A program made the position numbers and the translations under genes. Positions 47,788 through 55,730 of a stretch of DNA of 64,000 bases are shown here, piece after piece. The stretch's first letter is position 1; each line of letters starts with the position of its first letter. Under the pieces are notes generated by a model, which searched no databases, was not told the DNA's origin, and saw nothing but the letters and a program-made list of their open reading frames with translations. Source of the DNA: Thalassobaculum sp. OXR-137 (GTDB taxonomy: Bacteria > Pseudomonadota > Alphaproteobacteria > Thalassobaculales > Thalassobaculaceae); contig NZ_CP139715.1 of assembly GCF_034377285.1 (NCBI RefSeq), positions 2,340,001-2,404,000 on the forward strand. Direction: 5' to 3'.

Positions 47788-47863
<76 letters not shown>

Positions 47864-47887
47864 CTTCCAAGACGTTGAATACAAAGC

Positions 47888-47915
47888 AAAAGGGCCGCTG
47901 TTGGGCGGCCCTTTT
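47888..47915 (+). terminator. Intrinsic terminator after tRNA-Ala
   Basis: AAAAGGGCCGC pairs perfectly with GCGGCCCTTTT around TGTTGG; the A and T arms make it work in both directions, so it also ends the phage late transcript that comes from the right. Confidence 0.85.
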
Positions 47916-47954
47916 CTTGTGCGTCATACAGGCGATCGGGGCATTAACCGGGCG

Positions 47955-48137
47955 TTAAAGCGGGCCCTTCGCCTTGGCCTTGGCGCTGTCCCAGATACGC
48001 CTAACCTCGTCTTCCGGCATTCCGCGGCCGGGCCACATAGCCTCGCTGAGCCAAGAGAGGGCTCTAGGCCCATTCCATGTGCCGTCCGGGTTGGCCGCTG
48101 CCTCTTCGAGCGCCCTTGCCTTCCTTGGGTCGCTCAC
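47955..48137 (-). CDS. Small phage protein, 60 residues, unknown
   Basis: The last gene of the late operon codes for a soluble protein rich in W, R, A and P (TWNGPRALSWLSEAMWPGRGM) with a charged C-terminus. Its ATG overlaps the stop of the 94-residue gene before it by four bases (ATGA). I do not recognise it. Being adjacent to the lysis genes, it may have a late or lysogenic accessory role, which the sequence does not show. Confidence 0.65.
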   Translation of the reverse strand: MSDPRKARALEEAAANPDGTWNGPRALSWLSEAMWPGRGMPEDEVRRIWDSAKAKAKGPL

Positions 48138-48418
48138 GGCAGCTTTCCTTTCCTCAGTGGCAGGGTCTCCTCCAGCACCTTCGTAGGAACGCCGGCCTTG
48201 GCGTTGGCCATGCGGATCTGCCGGATGATGCTCTCCTCGTTCTCGCCCCAGAACACCTCGTCCAGGACGCCCTGGGTGCCGATCTGTAACGGGGAATTGT
48301 AGATCGCTTGCCGCAACGATGGCGGCAGCTCGTCCAGGGCCTCCATCTCGGCGGACGCCAGGACCTTCCTGGCTCCGGCCACTCCGTTACCGCTGGCCAC
48401 AAGCCGCCCCCATCGCAT
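48134..48418 (-). CDS. Small phage protein, 94 residues, unknown
   Basis: ATG 48418 lies inside the last 32 bases of the o-spanin gene in another frame, and the stop overlaps the next gene. The body (LPPSLRQAIYNSPLQIGTQG, then IIRQIRMANAKAGVP) looks helical and soluble, with no signal peptide. I do not recognise the family. It could be a moron-type accessory gene behind the lysis cassette. Confidence 0.65.
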   Translation of the reverse strand: MRWGRLVASGNGVAGARKVLASAEMEALDELPPSLRQAIYNSPLQIGTQGVLDEVFWGENEESIIRQIRMANAKAGVPTKVLEETLPLRKGKLP

Positions 48419-48602
48419 CGTTCAGGTCGTTCAACCCCACGGCCGTCGCCGGCGTGTCCTGCCGGGACGGCCAGAGCACGTAGCTCCGCCACGTCAGGCA
48501 CCCCGCGTCGCCGCTAGTCGCGGTACCGAAGCACCCGGTCAGGATCAGCGCGAGCCCGATCAACGGCATCGTGCGCTGCGCTCTGTCGATCAGCCGTTTC
48601 AT
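48387..48602 (-). CDS. o-spanin (Rz1-like lipoprotein)
   Basis: The 71-residue product has a basic n-region, a hydrophobic stretch and a lipobox (LILTGC, C24), so it is an outer-membrane lipoprotein. It begins inside the i-spanin gene in another frame and extends past its end, the classical overlapping Rz/Rz1 layout. The mature part is short and contains two further cysteines. With the i-spanin it would fuse inner and outer membranes at lysis. Assignment rests on layout and lipobox, not on sequence identity. Confidence 0.75.
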   Translation of the reverse strand: MKRLIDRAQRTMPLIGLALILTGCFGTATSGDAGCLTWRSYVLWPSRQDTPATAVGLNDLNDAMGAACGQR

Positions 48603-48723
48603 CCGCGTCCTCCGCTCTCTGCCGATCCGCTCCTGCCTTGAGGAGCTGGTTGTCCCTGAGCCAGCCCGCGATCCTGTCAGCGAACCTCGCCAGCACGAGC
48701 ACGAGCTGCGCCCAGGTCAACAT
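48514..48723 (-). CDS. i-spanin (Rz-like)
   Basis: ATG 48723 is two bases after the holin stop. The 69-residue product has an N-terminal hydrophobic helix (MLTWAQLVLVLARFADRIAGWL) and then a charged coiled-coil tail (RQRAEDADETADRQSAAHDAVDRA), as inner-membrane spanins do, only shorter than lambda Rz. The o-spanin gene overlaps its 3' half in another frame. Confidence 0.7.
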   Translation of the reverse strand: MLTWAQLVLVLARFADRIAGWLRDNQLLKAGADRQRAEDADETADRQSAAHDAVDRARADPDRVLRYRD

Positions 48724-48725
48724 GG

Positions 48726-48902
48726 TCAGGTCTCGTTCGGCACGGCCCACACGCCGAAGGCGGTCAGCAGCGGCACGACGGCCTCAAGGGCCTGATCGGC
48801 GGTGACGCCGACGAGGAGGTCCAGCGGGTAGACCTGCTGGATGATCACGAGCGCGGCCCCGACCAGGGCGACGATCAGCTTGCGGTACGGGCGGAGGTTC
48901 AT
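48726..48902 (-). CDS. Holin-like small membrane protein, 58 residues
   Basis: ATG 48902, TGA 48726. The product starts MNLRPYRKLIVALVGAALV and has two hydrophobic segments (about 9-23 and 39-54) joined by a short acidic turn (YPLDLLVGVTADQA), ending VWAVPNET. Such small two-segment proteins with an N-terminal RPYRK are typical phage holins of podo- and siphophages, which open the inner membrane for the lysozyme. It lies directly before the spanin pair. At 58 codons it is easily missed. Confidence 0.8.
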   Translation of the reverse strand: MNLRPYRKLIVALVGAALVIIQQVYPLDLLVGVTADQALEAVVPLLTAFGVWAVPNET

Positions 48903-48932
48903 GGGGTTGGGTCTCCTGTGTCTGGGGGCCGG

Positions 48933-49160
48933 TCAGGCCGTGACGTGCTTAACGGCCCACATCACCGCTTCTTCGGTCTTGGTTTTGGCGATCGAAAGCT
49001 CGCGGCTTCCACCGATGCTGTCGATCAAGGTCAGCAGCTCTGCACCCTTGTCCTTGATGGCGACCATCTGTGCCTTCTCCGCGTCCGAGAGAACGCGGTA
49101 TGTGTGGCGCACGGCGTTGTTGGCGGTGCGGTCGTCGCTGGCGCTGTCAACCTGCGTCAA
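48933..49160 (-). CDS. Acb2/Tad1-type hairpin protein (putative anti-CBASS/anti-Thoeris)
   Basis: The TTG start at 49160 has GAGGAG seven bases before it and is just after an in-frame stop, so it is the only good start. The 75 residues have the all-helical Acb2/Tad1 hairpin pattern: LSDAEKAQMVAIKDKGAEL, then a short turn with GGSRELSIAKTKTEEAVMWA (51-70), where the SRE-S-A-TK-EEA-MWA motif is the family's ligand-binding core. Phage Acb2 sponges up cyclic nucleotides of CBASS; Tad1 binds the Thoeris signal. Function here is inferred from family likeness. It sits between the lysozyme-like gene and the holin, an odd place for a defence-blocking gene. Confidence 0.75.
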   Translation of the reverse strand: MTQVDSASDDRTANNAVRHTYRVLSDAEKAQMVAIKDKGAELLTLIDSIGGSRELSIAKTKTEEAVMWAVKHVTA

Positions 49161-49171
49161 TGTTCATCTCC

Positions 49172-49639
49172 TCAGAGGACGTATTTGCGATAGAGGTCCG
49201 CGAAGTGCGCCGGGACGCCTGCCCCAAGCTCGGTGTTATAGACGCGCTTCCACGTCGCCCCCATGCCGTCCGCGTCCTCGTAGGCCGGGAGGGGGGAGGG
49301 GTCCATCCAGTAGCGCAGCCGGCAGATCGCAGCCGCGAAGGACAGGTTGGTGATGAGCTGGAGGTGCGGGGCTTCGCCCGTCATGAGCGGCTGAAGGTTC
49401 CGCGTGATGTCTGGCCGGGTGCCAAGATAGCGCCGATAGATGTCATTGAACGTCGCCACCTCGACCTGGAACAGGCCGAGGGCCGGGCCGTCGCCATGCT
49501 GGCGGAGATAGGTCAGGTTGCTTTCGGCCAGCGCCGTGCAGAACACCAGCCCCTCCGCCGCGGGGGTGTGGAAGCGGGGGCCAAGAGCCTTGATGGCCGG
49601 GGCGACCACGTCGGTGCGGAACTGGTAGGGGTTAAGCAT
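49172..49639 (-). CDS. Phage lysozyme-like/transglycosylase-like endolysin
   Basis: ATG 49639 begins a 155-residue product with a goose-lysozyme/SLT-like core: HTPAAEGLVFCTALAES (catalytic Glu probably E39), then QHGDGPALGLFQVE, and later a TELGAG turn. This family is frequent in phages near the end of the late region and is presumed to cut peptidoglycan. There is no signal peptide, so a holin is needed, and one lies downstream. It might instead be virion-associated. Confidence 0.7.
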   Translation of the reverse strand: MLNPYQFRTDVVAPAIKALGPRFHTPAAEGLVFCTALAESNLTYLRQHGDGPALGLFQVEVATFNDIYRRYLGTRPDITRNLQPLMTGEAPHLQLITNLSFAAAICRLRYWMDPSPLPAYEDADGMGATWKRVYNTELGAGVPAHFADLYRKYVL

Positions 49640-49689
49640 GACGCTCTCCGAAGTTGAGAGCCGCAGTCTACAGATTGTCGGTCGACAAA

Positions 49690-52600
49690 TCAATCCCGGC
49701 CGGTCGTGCGCCCGCCGCTGCCGCGCCCGGTGGTCCTGCCCTCCGGGTCCTTGCCCTTGCTCCAGCGCCGCACGCGCTCGCCGGTCAGGAAGGTCGCGAA
49801 GTCGCTGGCTGCCTGCGGTGAGAGGGGAGCCGTCGCCGGGCCGCCGATGGGGCCGAAGGGTGAGGCGATCAGCGCGCCGTATGCCTTGTTGAGCACGGGG
49901 CCGCCGGGGGCGAGCGCGAGCCCAGCGGCGACGGAGGGCACGACCACGGCGTTGTAGACCGCGCGCCACGCATTCCACTCGGCCGAGTTGGTGTTGGGGC
50001 TGTTCTTGCCGATCGGCTCGGGGATCAGGCCCACGAGTTTCTGTCCGTCCTGGAGATATTGCCCGACATACGGCCCGGCGATCAGCGCGGTCAGATCCCG
50101 TTCGTACTTCGCGCCGAGCACACCGTTCACCAGCGGGTCCAAATTGCCGAGCGCCCCCGCGCGGCTGGCGTACTGGACAATACTTAGCTCTTTTGGACGC
50201 TCCTCCGCCTCGTCGGAGTTGGTCAGCCGGTCCCGCAGGCTCGCCACGCCCATCTGCATGCCACCCAGGACTGCCAAGGCCATGCCCGGCCCCAGCGCCA
50301 GGGTGGCGCGGTCGGCGAGAGTCAGGTCCTTGTCGGTGGCCGCGCGGTACGCCTGTTTGCCCACCCGATAGGTGACGTTCCGGGTGTAGGTGTACATGAA
50401 GGACATGATGCCGTAGGCGAGACGGCCAACGGGGTGGTTGGCGGCGGCCGGGCGGTCGACGGCCTTCGGGTTCTGAATGCTCTCGTCCACGAACCGCAGG
50501 ATCGCGGCCATGTACTGCCGCGCGGCGGGGCTGTCGCCCATCAGGTCTGCCACCTTCGGCGCGCGGCCTTCGGCTTTGCCCAGGAACTTCGCCATGGCCG
50601 CGACATCGCCATCTGCGACGCCCAGGTCGGCCAGCAGCAGCTTGGCCGATGCCGTGCGCTTGCCTTCGCCGCCGGCGTCGCGAACCAGCCGGGCCAGGAA
50701 GTCGTGCCCGATCTTCACGCCCGCGAGGCGCTGGGCCTCGGTAAGCGGCTGGAGGCCGGAGCGGGTGAAGAACCGGGCCAGCAGCGCGTTGTTCAGGCGG
50801 CTCGCCTGCCCGCCGCCGAACTGGCCGGCCAGCACCATGTGGGTCATGGCGTCGCCCACCACGCCCATGAACTCGGCCGCGTCACGGTGGTCGTCGAGCG
50901 ACTTGCCCCGGAAGATTTCCTCCCAGGTGCCGGCGAATGCCTTCAGGCCGTCCAGCGCGTTGCCGGTGCGCACTCCATAGGCGAAGGGCTCGGCGATCGA
51001 GGACCACACGGCGCGCGGCAGCATGCGCAGGATGCCGACGGTCTGCACCCAGGCGACGGCGGAGCCGACGGGGGATAGGCCGTTGCCGTTGAGCAGGCCC
51101 AGGGAGCTGTCGATCGCCGTGCGCAGGTAGGCCAGATCAGCGGGGTCGACGCCCGCCCGGATCATGCCGTCGAACGCCTTGTCCAGGTCGGCCCCGTTCT
51201 TGCCGAACCGGCGGGTGAATTCGACCTTGCGCGTAACGTTCCGATAATAGGAAGAAAGCGTCTCGAAGGCGTCGCGGTTGTACCACTTCGCCATCATCTC
51301 GTCCGCCTCGGGCGGCAGCTTGCGGCCCTTGGTGAAGTCGGAGAGCGGTCCCTGTTGGCCGAAGCGCATCGCGCCCACGCCCAGCTCGCGCTCCCGCCAG
51401 TCGAGGGCCGCCTGCTTCGCGTCCTTCTCGGACAGGCCGATCTTGCGATAGACCTTGATGGCGTCGGCCTCGAACTCGGCCCCGTCCTTGCGGACGGCGT
51501 CGCTGTCGAGCATGCGCGGGAAGTAGTCCTTGGCATAGCCAAGCTCCAGCCCGGCGTCCTGGGCATACGCATGGACCTCGTCGAGAATGCCCCGCAGCCG
51601 CTTGGCCACGGTCTGCGCCGCCTCGGAGCCGCGCTTCGCGCGCCCGGCCAGAATGTCCCCGACCTCCGTGGCGAACGCCAGGTCGCCCAGCTTGTCCTTG
51701 CCGACGATGTTCCCCATGCGGTTCATGAGGTTGAAGGTCTTCTGGTTGACGGCTTCCTCGTAGACCTGTCCGACCTTCCGGCCGGATCCGGGGTCGGTGG
51801 CGATCTTGTCGATCACCTCGCCCATGATCTTCTTGGCCTCGCCGGAGTAGCGGTCGCGCAGCATGAACATCTGCCCGCGGTTGCTGTTCGCGACGTAGCC
51901 GGCAACGTTGGTCAGCGCCCGGATCGGGGAGGAGTTGGCGGTCGACGCCTTCAGCAGCCGGCGGACGGCAATCGCGTCCTTCGTGGCGGCAGCGGCCTCC
52001 TTGCCGATGGTGGCGGCGAACGGCTTACCGATCAGCCGCCCCACTTCGGCCGGATCGACGCCGGAATTGAGCGTTACGGAGCGCTCCTTCCGGGGGGCAC
52101 GATCGCCGTTCCCCGCATCAGCCTCCGGCGCATCTCGCGAGCCTCCGGCGGCATCGCGGCCATCGTCTCCGCGAACTTCTCCTGTGCCGCCCTCAACGCG
52201 CGCTGAAACGCCGGGCTCTCGGTCAGGGGCAGGGGCAGATCGGGCCGGCCGTTGTGGAACGCGACCGCCGGGGGCATCCTCTCCGCGGGGGTCTGGACCC
52301 CGAACTCGATCGTCTCGTCCAGGCGCGTTGCCGTCACCGCGCCCCATACCTCGCGCATCATCTCCCTGCTCGCGTCGGTCAGCAGCGGCACCGTCACCAC
52401 GTCCCCTGTCTTCCACCACGGCAGCGGGGTCCGGTCGATCGACCCGCTCTCCGATGACGGCGCGGCCATCTCTTCCAGCCGTCGTGCCTGTGTCTCGCGC
52501 TCCGTTTCCATCCTGTCCTCCTGCGTTGGTGTTGGTCTCACTCCGCCCACGTTCGCGCACGGTGAAGCCGTTGCCCGACGGGTGGTTGTCGATCTCGAAA

Positions 52601-54621
52601 ATCTGATCCGGACTGCGCTTGTGGCCCTGGCTCAGCACCCAGCGCGCGGCCTGCTTCTGGTCCTTGAACTTGACCGGGCCGCCCTTGTCGGACGCCACGA
52701 AGCCGAACTCGTCGGTCGCATAGCGCCCGTCCGTACCGGGCTCGCCCGTCTTCGGGGAGAAGCCGGAGGCTTTCGCGCCCTCGTACTTGGAGCGGGCGTC
52801 GCCGGTCGAGTATCCGCGCTCGCTGTCGGCACGGCGGGATCGGGAACGCTGCTCCCACTCTCGCAACAGGTCAGCCACGCTCGACATCCGCTCGGCCGAA
52901 GCGCGGACATAGGCCCGGTCCTCGAAGCGGGCAGCGCGCTCGTCGCGCGGCCGACCGGTCTCGGGGTCGCGGGTGGCGAAGTCCATGCCCGAGCTGTCGC
53001 TGTCCAGCCGGGTCGGTCGGTCAGCGGTGCCCGTCGCCGTGCGGGCGTAGGGCTGCCCGCCAGCGTCGATCTCCGTGGTGGTGGGCTGTCGCCCCCGACC
53101 GGCCTCTCCCGCGCCCTGCTGGGGCCGCGTGGCGGGGCTGTACTGGCCATCCCCGATGGCAGCATCGGACGTAGCGCGCGCCGGGGCAGGAGCTTCCGCC
53201 GTCCGCTGTCGCTGGGCAGCGGCAACGACCCGCTCGCGGGCCTCCGCCGGCAGCGTGCGGTAGGTCTCCGCCGGAATGCCGAGCTGGGTCTGCACCAGGA
53301 CCTCCGGGTCCTCGTCGATCCGTGCGCCGATGTCGTCGCCACGGGCACGGGCGATGCCCGCATCCAGGCCGGGGTCGACCGTGCCCGCCGGGCGTGCCGT
53401 GGTGGCCTCCGGCGCTCCGGCGCCTGTGCGGACGGGCGGCCCGGCCTCGATCGTATCGGGTGCGCGCGGCGGAGGCGGCTGCTCTCCGGCAGCCCGCGCT
53501 TCCGCAAGCTGCTCCGGGGTCAGTTCCGCCGGGGCCTTCCGGGCGGCAAGCTCGGCCTTGCGGGTCGCCTCTGCATCTGCCTTCGCCTGCGCCGTCGCCT
53601 CGGTCGTCGTGGTGAGCGGCTGCGCCCCTTCCTGTGCTCGAACCGCCTCGTTGGCGCGGCGAGCCTGCACGCGCTCAGCCATCTTCGCCGGGTCGGACAT
53701 GGCGCTGATCTGCTCGTCCGTCGCTCCGGCGGAGCGAAGAAGGTCTCTTGTCTCCGGATCGGTCTGCACGGCACGCGCCACCTCCTCGGCCGAAACCTCG
53801 GCCTCGGGTTTGCCGAAAAGCCTCGCGACACGGCCGCCGATGGCACGGGACATCTCGGGCGTTACGTTCAGCACGCCACCGATCAGTGCCGATATCGCCA
53901 CCCCCGCGGCTCCGCCAGCAACGTCCGGCGCTTCCTGCCGGCCGGCCTGGATGTTGCCGACCTGGATGACGGGCTCGACGGCAGCGCTCACCCCAGCGTT
54001 TGCCGCAGCACCCTTGGCGAGTGTGCGCGGCACGGTCGAGGCCCGCCCCACCGGGATCAGGTTCTCGGGGGTCGGGATGCCGCCGGCGATCTGCCCGAGC
54101 AGCGCGGCAGCCCCCTCGGCCGGGCCGGACCACTCCGGCAGCGCATCGAACTCCGCACGGCGCGCGGCGTCCTTCTCCTGGAAATCAGCGCGCGCCGCAT
54201 CGGCGACGCCACGTTGTTCGACGGCATAGCGCTCCAGATCGGCGTCGCTCATACCCCGGATCGTAGCCTGTGACCCGCTGGCGATCGCCCGCATGGCGGC
54301 CGGATCTGGTGGCAGGTCGGCCATGCCGGTCGCGCGAGGGTCCGCGCCCCTGCGCCGGGCAAGCTCATAGTCGGCAGCATCCGCAAGCTCTCGGGTGCCG
54401 CCGCGCGACTGCGCGTCCGACACCACCTGTCCCGCAAGCGTCCCCTCCGCGAACGACTGCTCCGCGTTGATGCGGGCGCGATCCAGCAGGGACGGCCCCC
54501 GCCCCGGCGCGTCCGCCTGGTCGAGCACGAACCCGGTCGGGGGCGGGGGCAGGGTCGCCGGCTGCTTCGGGTCCCCGTCAAGAAGGAAGCCCGGCGGTGG
54601 GGCGGGGATCATGCCGGCCAT
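49690..54621 (-). CDS. Very large internal virion (DNA-ejection) protein, 1643 residues
   Basis: ATG 54621 overlaps the stop of the preceding gene (TGATG) and the frame stays open to TGA 49690. The N-terminus repeats a PPPGFLLDG/PPTGFVLDQ motif twice; residues about 30-690 are A/R/E/P-rich and largely helical with FKDQKQAARWVLSQGHKRSP at the end. Residues about 690-850 are a G/D/R/A-rich stretch whose codons lose the G/C third-base bias, because a second gene (52074-52511) is coded there in another frame. From about 850 the normal pattern returns, with long helices and a C-terminal virion-protein-like domain. Position equals T7 gp16. Likely it is an ejected core protein; it may be two ancestral genes joined. 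Confidence 0.75.
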   Translation of the reverse strand: MAGMIPAPPPGFLLDGDPKQPATLPPPPTGFVLDQADAPGRGPSLLDRARINAEQSFAEGTLAGQVVSDAQSRGGTRELADAADYELARRRGADPRATGMADLPPDPAAMRAIASGSQATIRGMSDADLERYAVEQRGVADAARADFQEKDAARRAEFDALPEWSGPAEGAAALLGQIAGGIPTPENLIPVGRASTVPRTLAKGAAANAGVSAAVEPVIQVGNIQAGRQEAPDVAGGAAGVAISALIGGVLNVTPEMSRAIGGRVARLFGKPEAEVSAEEVARAVQTDPETRDLLRSAGATDEQISAMSDPAKMAERVQARRANEAVRAQEGAQPLTTTTEATAQAKADAEATRKAELAARKAPAELTPEQLAEARAAGEQPPPPRAPDTIEAGPPVRTGAGAPEATTARPAGTVDPGLDAGIARARGDDIGARIDEDPEVLVQTQLGIPAETYRTLPAEARERVVAAAQRQRTAEAPAPARATSDAAIGDGQYSPATRPQQGAGEAGRGRQPTTTEIDAGGQPYARTATGTADRPTRLDSDSSGMDFATRDPETGRPRDERAARFEDRAYVRASAERMSSVADLLREWEQRSRSRRADSERGYSTGDARSKYEGAKASGFSPKTGEPGTDGRYATDEFGFVASDKGGPVKFKDQKQAARWVLSQGHKRSPDQIFEIDNHPSGNGFTVRERGRSETNTNAGGQDGNGARDTGTTAGRDGRAVIGERVDRPDPAAVVEDRGRGDGAAADRREQGDDARGMGRGDGNAPGRDDRVRGPDPRGEDAPGGRVPQRPARSAPAPDREPGVSARVEGGTGEVRGDDGRDAAGGSRDAPEADAGNGDRAPRKERSVTLNSGVDPAEVGRLIGKPFAATIGKEAAAATKDAIAVRRLLKASTANSSPIRALTNVAGYVANSNRGQMFMLRDRYSGEAKKIMGEVIDKIATDPGSGRKVGQVYEEAVNQKTFNLMNRMGNIVGKDKLGDLAFATEVGDILAGRAKRGSEAAQTVAKRLRGILDEVHAYAQDAGLELGYAKDYFPRMLDSDAVRKDGAEFEADAIKVYRKIGLSEKDAKQAALDWRERELGVGAMRFGQQGPLSDFTKGRKLPPEADEMMAKWYNRDAFETLSSYYRNVTRKVEFTRRFGKNGADLDKAFDGMIRAGVDPADLAYLRTAIDSSLGLLNGNGLSPVGSAVAWVQTVGILRMLPRAVWSSIAEPFAYGVRTGNALDGLKAFAGTWEEIFRGKSLDDHRDAAEFMGVVGDAMTHMVLAGQFGGGQASRLNNALLARFFTRSGLQPLTEAQRLAGVKIGHDFLARLVRDAGGEGKRTASAKLLLADLGVADGDVAAMAKFLGKAEGRAPKVADLMGDSPAARQYMAAILRFVDESIQNPKAVDRPAAANHPVGRLAYGIMSFMYTYTRNVTYRVGKQAYRAATDKDLTLADRATLALGPGMALAVLGGMQMGVASLRDRLTNSDEAEERPKELSIVQYASRAGALGNLDPLVNGVLGAKYERDLTALIAGPYVGQYLQDGQKLVGLIPEPIGKNSPNTNSAEWNAWRAVYNAVVVPSVAAGLALAPGGPVLNKAYGALIASPFGPIGGPATAPLSPQAASDFATFLTGERVRRWSKGKDPEGRTTGRGSGGRTTGRD
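52074..52511 (-). CDS. Nested (overprinted) gene inside the 1643-residue protein, 145 residues
   Basis: ATG 52511 has a perfect ribosome site (CAGGAGG, five bases before) and the frame ends in TAA at 52074. Its codons have the strong G/C third-base preference of the neighbours, while the outer frame loses it just over this span. The protein looks natural: METERETQARRLEEM, TPLPWWKTGDVVTVPLLTD, then ESPAFQRALRAAQEKFAETM and a basic end. I know no family for it. An AAGGAG at 52084-52089 stands six bases before a GTA in the outer frame, as if a separate third gene once began there. Confidence 0.65.
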   Translation of the reverse strand: METERETQARRLEEMAAPSSESGSIDRTPLPWWKTGDVVTVPLLTDASREMMREVWGAVTATRLDETIEFGVQTPAERMPPAVAFHNGRPDLPLPLTESPAFQRALRAAQEKFAETMAAMPPEAREMRRRLMRGTAIVPPGRSAP

Positions 54622-55730
54622 CAGGTTACCGGAACCCACTTGGTGCCATCCCACTCGATCTTCTCGCCAGTCTGCGGATTGGTCGCGGTGGGACGGGCCT
54701 GGGTTCCGGCCTCAGCCGGAGCCGCTGGAGAGGCGTCCTTCTTCCCGGTAACAGTCGGCGTAGCCCCAAGCGTCCACCATCCTCCGGTCGAACCGACCTC
54801 CGCGCGCTCCTTGATTGCTTGCTGTACAGCGGTTCCCGCGTTCCGGGTCTCCTGGTAAAGCTCGCTCGCCCGGTTGACGACTGAATTGATGACGCCGTCC
54901 TCCACCTCCGCCCCCTCGGGGAGCGACCGCAAAACCATCTCCTCCATGACCTTCGAGTCCTGCGGGGAAACATTGATCGGCTTGTCCGCTGACCCACCCG
55001 GAACCGTCGTCTGCGTCGTGCGCTGGTCGCCGGGCACCGTGAGCACCGTGGAGCCACCGGAGGCCACGACGGGCTTCTCGCGCTCCAGCGTCTCCTTGCT
55101 GGCTCGATCAGCGTCGGCGCGGGTGTTACGTCCACCCTCTTGCAGAACGGCCTCGCGCATCGAGCCGGCGATGGTGTCCCGGTTCCGATTGCCCAGCCCG
55201 GTTTCTTTGGTATCGAGCTGTTCGTCCGCGACGCGCTCGTTGTCGCCCCGGATCGCCGTCTGGCCCGCCAGCGTGTAAGCGGTGTCAGCCGTGCGCGCGG
55301 AGCCACCGGCACCGACGGCAGCCCGGCCCACCTGATCTTCGCTCGTGCCGGGCGTGTTCGCCGTCAGGAAGCGCATCAGGTCGGACACGCTGTCGGGGTT
55401 GCCGCCGCTACGCGCGACTTCGGTAGTGATGCCCTTGACCGCCTGGGCCACGCTGTCCGGGTTGGACAGGTCCAGCCCGCCGAACAGATCGGCGATCGCA
55501 CCACGCCCGGTGGCTTCCGCCGCCAGGTTGTCCGCCTCAAGGCCATACTTCCGGGCCGCCTGCGCGCGAGGGTCCTTGTCCTCGTCATAGGTCGCGGCAC
55601 CGATCACGTTGCTGAACAGGTTCGCGATCTGCCCCCAAGGCTGACCGCCCCCACGCCCACCACCGCCGCCGACCGAGAGGCCGGGGCTGGAGATGTTGCT
55701 GTTTATGCGTGCGTAATATGCGTTCTGCAT
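54621..55730 (-). CDS. Internal virion protein (gp15-position), 369 residues
   Basis: The 369-residue product begins with a glycine-rich segment (LSVGGGGGRGGGQ) and is otherwise helical, with a C-terminal TNPQTGEKIEWDGTKWVPV that is common at the end of phage virion proteins. Its place between the gp14-like protein and the giant protein is that of T7 gp15. No enzymatic motif is seen. The stop overlaps the giant gene's start by one base (TGATG). Confidence 0.7.
   Translation of the reverse strand: MQNAYYARINSNISSPGLSVGGGGGRGGGQPWGQIANLFSNVIGAATYDEDKDPRAQAARKYGLEADNLAAEATGRGAIADLFGGLDLSNPDSVAQAVKGITTEVARSGGNPDSVSDLMRFLTANTPGTSEDQVGRAAVGAGGSARTADTAYTLAGQTAIRGDNERVADEQLDTKETGLGNRNRDTIAGSMREAVLQEGGRNTRADADRASKETLEREKPVVASGGSTVLTVPGDQRTTQTTVPGGSADKPINVSPQDSKVMEEMVLRSLPEGAEVEDGVINSVVNRASELYQETRNAGTAVQQAIKERAEVGSTGGWWTLGATPTVTGKKDASPAAPAEAGTQARPTATNPQTGEKIEWDGTKWVPVT

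Follow-up and report, generated by a model that had tools for sequence, protein, structure and literature searches.

What is a 75-residue protein doing at the far end of a prophage's late genes, packed among what look like the genes for lysis? The gene lies in a 64,000-nucleotide stretch of Thalassobaculum sp. OXR-137 (assembly GCF_034377285.1, contig NZ_CP139715.1, positions 2,340,001 to 2,404,000), below called the window. An initial annotation, made from the letters alone, took its product for an Acb2/Tad1-like anti-defence protein inside a phage lysis cassette. We find that the gene product is probably a compact, phage-encoded sponge of the Acb2 kind, where family, residues and gene packing are read from the sequence, the fold is taken from a model, and the function is what we infer from these.

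The family assignment can be made directly. Against the Pfam family PF24729 (Acb2/Tad1 hairpin) the protein scores 74.9 bits, compared with a gathering cut-off of 27, over residues 20–74, and the motif that the initial annotation relied on, SRELSIAKTKTEEAVMWA, is present. It also matches the PHROG groups 717 (2.4e-7), 1454 and 15810, the first of which is the group where Jenson et al. found the homologues of Vs.4 of phage T4, 198 of them in the tree (from a section of PMC10097602). When a profile of 48 relatives is compared with the PDB sequences, the top nine matches are all Vs.4, p26/Acb2, Acb2 homolog 43 or Tad1, with E-values of 0.004–0.006 for the first three and 0.08–0.09 for Tad1, while the next, unrelated, entry follows at 0.14. 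Each of these values is modest, and the weight lies in their agreement. Among the matches the Tad1 entry 7uav carries the label ABC transporter ATPase; the further entry 8smd is named Tad1 in the Foldseek listing.

The predicted fold points the same way. An AlphaFold model of the monomer (54-row alignment, mean predicted local distance difference test score (pLDDT) 86.1) has helices at residues 9–16, 26–49 and 53–74 and no strand, i.e., a short N-terminal helix and two long antiparallel helices, which resembles the Acb2 protomer as the fold is defined in parts of PMC12043709 and PMC10419184. The first eight Foldseek matches in the PDB are Vs.4 or Acb2 (E 0.35–1.9, probability 0.84–0.99, template modelling (TM) score up to 0.67), and 17 of the first 20 matches in a viral structure library are named Acb2/Tad1 hairpin proteins, the other 3 being unnamed. 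Because the N-terminal β-sheet of Tad1 is absent from the model, the protein should be regarded as Acb2-like and not as Tad1-like: of the double name first given, the stand-alone helical hairpin holds, whereas Tad1 membership was rejected for a 75-residue, all-helical model without the N-terminal antiparallel sheet.

The reading frame itself had been placed exactly, stop codon included; its strand, which had been left unstated, is minus. The strong ribosome site ascribed to the TTG start is TGAGGAG, 7 bases upstream of it, and the ATG that lies 7 bases ahead of the TTG is in another frame. In the 155 relatives aligned without gaps the residue-1 codon is ATG in 62, and since most of the other codons shown there are non-start codons the N-termini of the relatives differ, which makes the support for the TTG start from relatives modest. 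The related sequences comprise 148 distinct ones from 163 loci, and the median ratio of nonsynonymous to synonymous substitution rates (dN/dS) is 0.11 over 51 family-wide pairs, which are related and therefore not independent. Taken with the PF24729 match, these comparisons mark the open reading frame (ORF) as a real gene. A small gene in a prophage could also be functionless, a hairpin gene in decay or carried along as a passenger, but the low dN/dS of the family-wide pairs, the residues that are near-invariant over the 148 sequences, and the intact frame with its ribosome site make that highly improbable.

Which residues are kept can be judged against the positions known from Vs.4. In the text of PMC10097602 to which we refer, Vs.4 binds cyclic GMP–AMP (cGAMP) via Tyr8, His11, Lys23, Arg79 and Phe82, and mutations at Leu29, Ala66, Ala73 and Ala77 abolished both oligomers and binding. 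By alignment the first five positions correspond to Tyr21, Leu24, Lys36, Lys71 and Thr74 of the 75-residue protein, and the other four to Leu42, Ala58, Ala65 and Ala69. Counting over the 148 distinct relatives, with denominators that vary by position, Tyr21 is kept in 141/145, Lys36 in 142/148 and Lys71 in 133/141, with Arg in the remainder for both lysines, and Thr74 is found in 141/141. The interface alanines are near-constant (Ala58 in 146/147, Ala65 and Ala69 in 143/147 each), position 42 is Leu in 60/147 and Phe in 83/147, and Arg53 is kept in 146/147. As far as the alignment can tell, most of the pocket and hexamer-interface positions known from Vs.4 are thus retained. Outside the Pfam model, Arg11 (139/141), Asn14 (139/142) and Arg18 (140/143) are nearly fixed and appear as an N-terminal element of this subfamily. 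If the likeness extends to assembly, the protein would form a hexamer. A bound cyclic nucleotide would then sit between Tyr21, Lys36 and Lys71 of paired protomers, and the area around Arg53 may hold a second binding site.

Several observations weigh against a sponge of the Acb2 kind. In a single-sequence phmmer search an unrelated protein comes first (E 0.048), ahead of Acb2 homolog 43 (0.54) and Vs.4 (0.57). The N-terminal 20 residues are poorly modelled (block means 63 and 57), with helix 9–16 at low confidence, and neither the PDB nor the viral library gives a structural match with E < 0.001, as expected for a small hairpin. His11 and Phe82 of Vs.4 are replaced by Leu24 and Thr74, but this is not decisive because PaP2 Acb2 also lacks both in the alignment. 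The host genome has no SMODS match (other cyclase families were not searched), and given this the classic target, the cyclic-oligonucleotide-based antiphage signalling system (CBASS), may be missing in this host. Finally, when taxon is taken into account, carrier genomes show no clear excess of SMODS. It is above cut-off in 10 of the 36 carrier genomes, which represent 36 of 80 genome loci and are mostly named isolates, versus 10 in a sample of 289 genomes of the class (Fisher p 7e-6). The class sample is however a poor control, given that SMODS is found in 16/59 genomes of one carrier's genus, where the sponge is in 1/59, the carrier itself. Co-occurrence with CBASS was accordingly rejected as support, and we claim no association. 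A search of the host for SAVED gave no match, but the controls were equally silent and the result is uninformative. Separately, a Cas10 palm2-like match in the host (L206, C1:1740403-1740645) reaches 25.1 bits, below the family cut-off of 27.

What the host does carry is a row of TIR, caspase (Peptidase_C14, 1.2e-17) and TIR genes followed by an AbiTii gene (L207:9963-11745, C1 about 5.458-5.460 Mb), at the end of the main contig, where the first TIR gene runs off. The cluster resembles type IV Thoeris, in which N7-cyclic ADP-ribose (N7-cADPR) activates a caspase-like protease, according to part of PMC12847820; that it is connected with the sponge is, from one genome, a guess. The ligand might then be a signal of the cyclic ADP-ribose type, e.g., N7-cADPR from such a TIR–caspase system, and not a CBASS dinucleotide, which would fit the absence of a SMODS match, the nearly invariant Arg11, Asn14 and Arg18 of the subfamily, and the binding of glyco-cyclic ADP-ribose (gcADPR) by Tad1, whose hairpin is related (PMC12043709, in part). 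However, this concerns a single host with an incomplete first TIR gene, the phage may face other hosts, and ThsB_TIR is found in 7/36 carrier genomes, a count without taxon control. In addition, Tad1 builds its gcADPR pocket, according to the same part of PMC12043709, from loops together with the C-terminal tail and the two helices, and the loops presumably belong to the N-terminal sheet part that the present protein lacks. We therefore consider a cyclic ADP-ribose ligand unlikely.

The surroundings of the gene bear on when such a sponge would act. A perfect 49-bp duplication of the end of tRNA-Ala marks the ends of a temperate prophage of about 47.6 kb, with the integrase (L084:9598-10719) adjoining attR, the far copy of the repeat. 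Between the repeats lie genes for a large terminase, a helicase, a primase/helicase and an internal virion protein. The same prophage encodes a DHH/DHHA1 phosphoesterase (L083:8914-9780, extended window 72914-73780; phrog_4771, 2.6e-90); this class we take to include dinucleotide-cleaving enzymes, and the gene could be a second nucleotide-handling one. The late genes run leftward and end at tRNA-Ala, and the hairpin gene is co-directional with them and closely packed at their end, 11 nt after the lysozyme-like gene and 30 nt before the gene of the 58-residue membrane protein. The order is: the 1654-residue protein, the lysozyme-like protein, the hairpin gene, the membrane protein, a pair resembling Rz/Rz1, two small ORFs and a terminator-like hairpin.

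Coordinates, in the window, of the hairpin gene, its neighbours in the late cluster and the nearby prophage end
Feature	Position	Strand	Basis and remarks
attL, 3′ part of tRNA-Ala(ggc)	47815..47863	+	perfect 49-bp repeat at extended window coordinate 95409-95457
Terminator-like hairpin closing the late gene cluster	47888..47915	−	11-pair stem with T tail
Candidate outer-membrane spanin (Rz1-like)	48387..48602	−	lipoprotein signal LILTGC; overlaps preceding gene; sequence, weak LPAM_1 match (E 0.45)
Candidate inner-membrane spanin (Rz-like), start uncertain	48514..48750	−	position and overlap only
58-aa membrane protein, candidate holin	48726..48902	−	hydrophobic segments; phrog_17495 membrane protein 2.3e-5; phrog_297 holin 0.046 (weak)
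Acb2-like hairpin protein, 75 aa	48933..49160	−	TTG start at 49160, stop codon 48933-48935; PF24729 5.8e-21; PDB profile and Foldseek matches to Vs.4 and Acb2; residue conservation
Lysozyme-like protein, candidate endolysin, 155 aa	49172..49639	−	phrog_3108 1.7e-38, function unknown; relative after annotated holin in Vibrio phage PhiPS02
1654-aa late protein before candidate endolysin, perhaps internal virion protein	49690..54654	−	weak match to phrog_684 virion structural protein, 2.1e-4

The initial annotation's lysis cassette is supported at the level of gene anatomy, while the names endolysin and holin are not proven by family matches; the hairpin gene therefore lies in a likely lysis cassette. 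The 155-residue protein has no Pfam match. It contains an ESN...GLFQ pattern, which we take to be typical of lysozymes, and its relative in Vibrio phage PhiPS02 directly follows the annotated holin. In PQ867849 a remote match (28.7% identity) overlaps a feature annotated as endolysin. By its lysozyme-like pattern and its place next to the holin in PhiPS02, phrog_3108 would itself resemble an endolysin family. In the 58-residue protein one membrane segment is clear and another borderline. The two overlapping ORFs resemble an Rz/Rz1 pair because the second carries the lipoprotein signal, a likeness of anatomy only; the first has no Pfam match and no segment above the membrane threshold, and its PHROG matches, to groups of unknown function, are all weak (best E 0.0096). 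Terminator-like sites in the region number 3, compared with 1.5 expected in shuffles.

Does the gene then belong to lysis? A late hairpin-fold protein might serve lysis timing or assembly, and not counter-defence, by binding either an ordinary cellular nucleotide or a protein of the phage or the cell. Its packing among candidate lysis genes speaks for such a role, as do relatives that adjoin portal and head genes. But the setting is inconstant, the residues of the known pocket are kept, and a copy of the hairpin gene is absent from the available flanks of 30 relatives of the candidate endolysin (tblastn E 0.01). We regard a role in lysis or assembly as distinctly unlikely.

The inconstancy is best seen from the relatives of the presumed sponge. 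These occur at 118 loci in viral contigs and 89 in species genomes, 80 of each being used, and in 27 of 50,697 phage records, 23 of them Paenibacillus phages at 36% identity. By record title the species genomes are mostly Alphaproteobacteria with few other groups; the relatives there are presumed to lie in prophages. In the 80 viral contigs the identity is 61–93%, and almost no neighbours are shared with the window. When twelve window proteins, the hairpin included, were compared with 164 loci, only four loci had a shared gene besides the hairpin, none of them for lysis. A subfamily confined to lysis cassettes was thus rejected, the window's lysis neighbours being found in 0/164 loci at tblastn E 0.001, a search in which small divergent proteins can be missed.

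Late modules nevertheless recur. Because the simple script used to call genes in the relatives' loci overlooked the hairpin gene in some of them, the counts are approximate; the tables cover the 25 commonest families, and most neighbours belong to none of those named here. Upstream (65 of 66 non-redundant neighbours scanned) 9/65 match the portal family phrog_146, and downstream (66 of 67 scanned) 4/66 match head morphogenesis phrog_324. Among second neighbours (116 of 130 scanned) terminase phrog_38 is seen in 6/116 and endolysin phrog_1493 in 2/116, and at the genome loci (136 of 155 scanned) phrog_146 is seen in 7/136 and a head–tail adaptor in 4/136. In Sinorhizobium phage Aussie the gene sits between the head-to-tail adaptor and the stopper, podovirus ctCJ8213 has it close to recT and an exonuclease, and at L089 its upstream neighbour is a replication initiation gene. 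An anti-defence island is hinted at by one of the 116 second neighbours, which matches the Tad2-like Thoeris anti-defence domain (PF11195, 8.3e-25). Judging from these arrangements the gene travels as cargo, with late modules recurring but not the rule and the lysis position one of many: the sponge would have been passed between unrelated phages and here landed in a lysis cassette. The late placement, first thought unusual, is less so, since some close relatives adjoin portal and head genes; yet acb2 of PaP2 ends a polymerase/primase cluster. In the open-access literature searched we found no publication that deals with this subfamily or places a relative of Acb2 in a lysis cassette.

Gene order also suggests that the hairpin gene is expressed late. 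The sponge would be made together with the virion and lysis proteins, and by binding the host's alarm nucleotide it would prevent cell suicide before the particles are finished. That the protein might instead keep a lysogen's defence quiet, as initially proposed, is weakened by the late cluster, by the 11-nt gap to the preceding gene, and by the lack of any promoter-like match in 47864-50400, a weak test with 0.2 expected by chance. Gene order argues against a role in lysogeny, and a passage of the review PMC12043709 likewise has Acb2 act during induction rather than lysogenic maintenance. A more sweeping idea concerns a subfamily of mobile sponges that often occur in late modules of Alphaproteobacteria phages and are marked by an N-terminal Arg-x-x-Asn-x-x-x-Arg. 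These would bind another alarm nucleotide such as N7-cADPR in place of the classic CBASS dinucleotide, their late timing matching defences triggered by head proteins; we hold this to be quite doubtful.

The Acb2 family is already known, and the locus adds to it a well-supported sponge candidate in a likely lysis cassette. One 2024 preprint, in the part we cite, describes Acb2 as fairly uncommon and confined to particular groups of phages (PMC11722364). The compact subfamily has 148 distinct sequences in viral contigs, phage records and bacterial genomes, some of them in late modules. If it does bind immune nucleotides, a number of phages may time their sponging to virion assembly or lysis, and the subfamily offers a small, well-conserved set of proteins for asking how the hairpin changes its ligand.

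Among known sponges, Acb2 homolog 43 (PDB 9PTQ) is similar in size, with 76 residues, and has the same compact RE-S---TK-EEA motif; the literature searches made turned up neither its phage nor its ligand nor a publication on it, and no paper with pocket mutants of PaMx33 Acb2. Tad1 (PDB 7UAV, 8SMD, 8KBF) shares a C-terminal hairpin with SREnacAlThvEEAlMW, but there the hairpin is preceded by an N-terminal β-sheet (PMC12043709, in part) that is absent here. Vs.4/Acb2 of T4 (PDB 7UQ2) has the blocks AIKD and IAKTK..EA.MWA in common with our protein, as well as the positions Tyr8, Lys23, Ala66, Ala73 and Ala77, but is 88 residues long, has Arg79 where the present protein has Lys71, and has the His11 and Phe82 that are not kept. 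The neighbours of vs.4 are presumably early genes. Acb2 of PaP2 (p26; PDB 8H2J) shares the YRxLS motif and, matching Lys36 and Arg53 of the present protein, has Lys26 and Arg67, two residues that presumably have a role in PaP2 Acb2. It differs in its 92–93 residues, with 29% identity to the 75-residue protein in a MAFFT alignment, in its gene ending a cluster with DNA polymerase and primase, and in its longer interhelix linker, the linker of the present protein being shorter than that of both PaP2 Acb2 and Vs.4.
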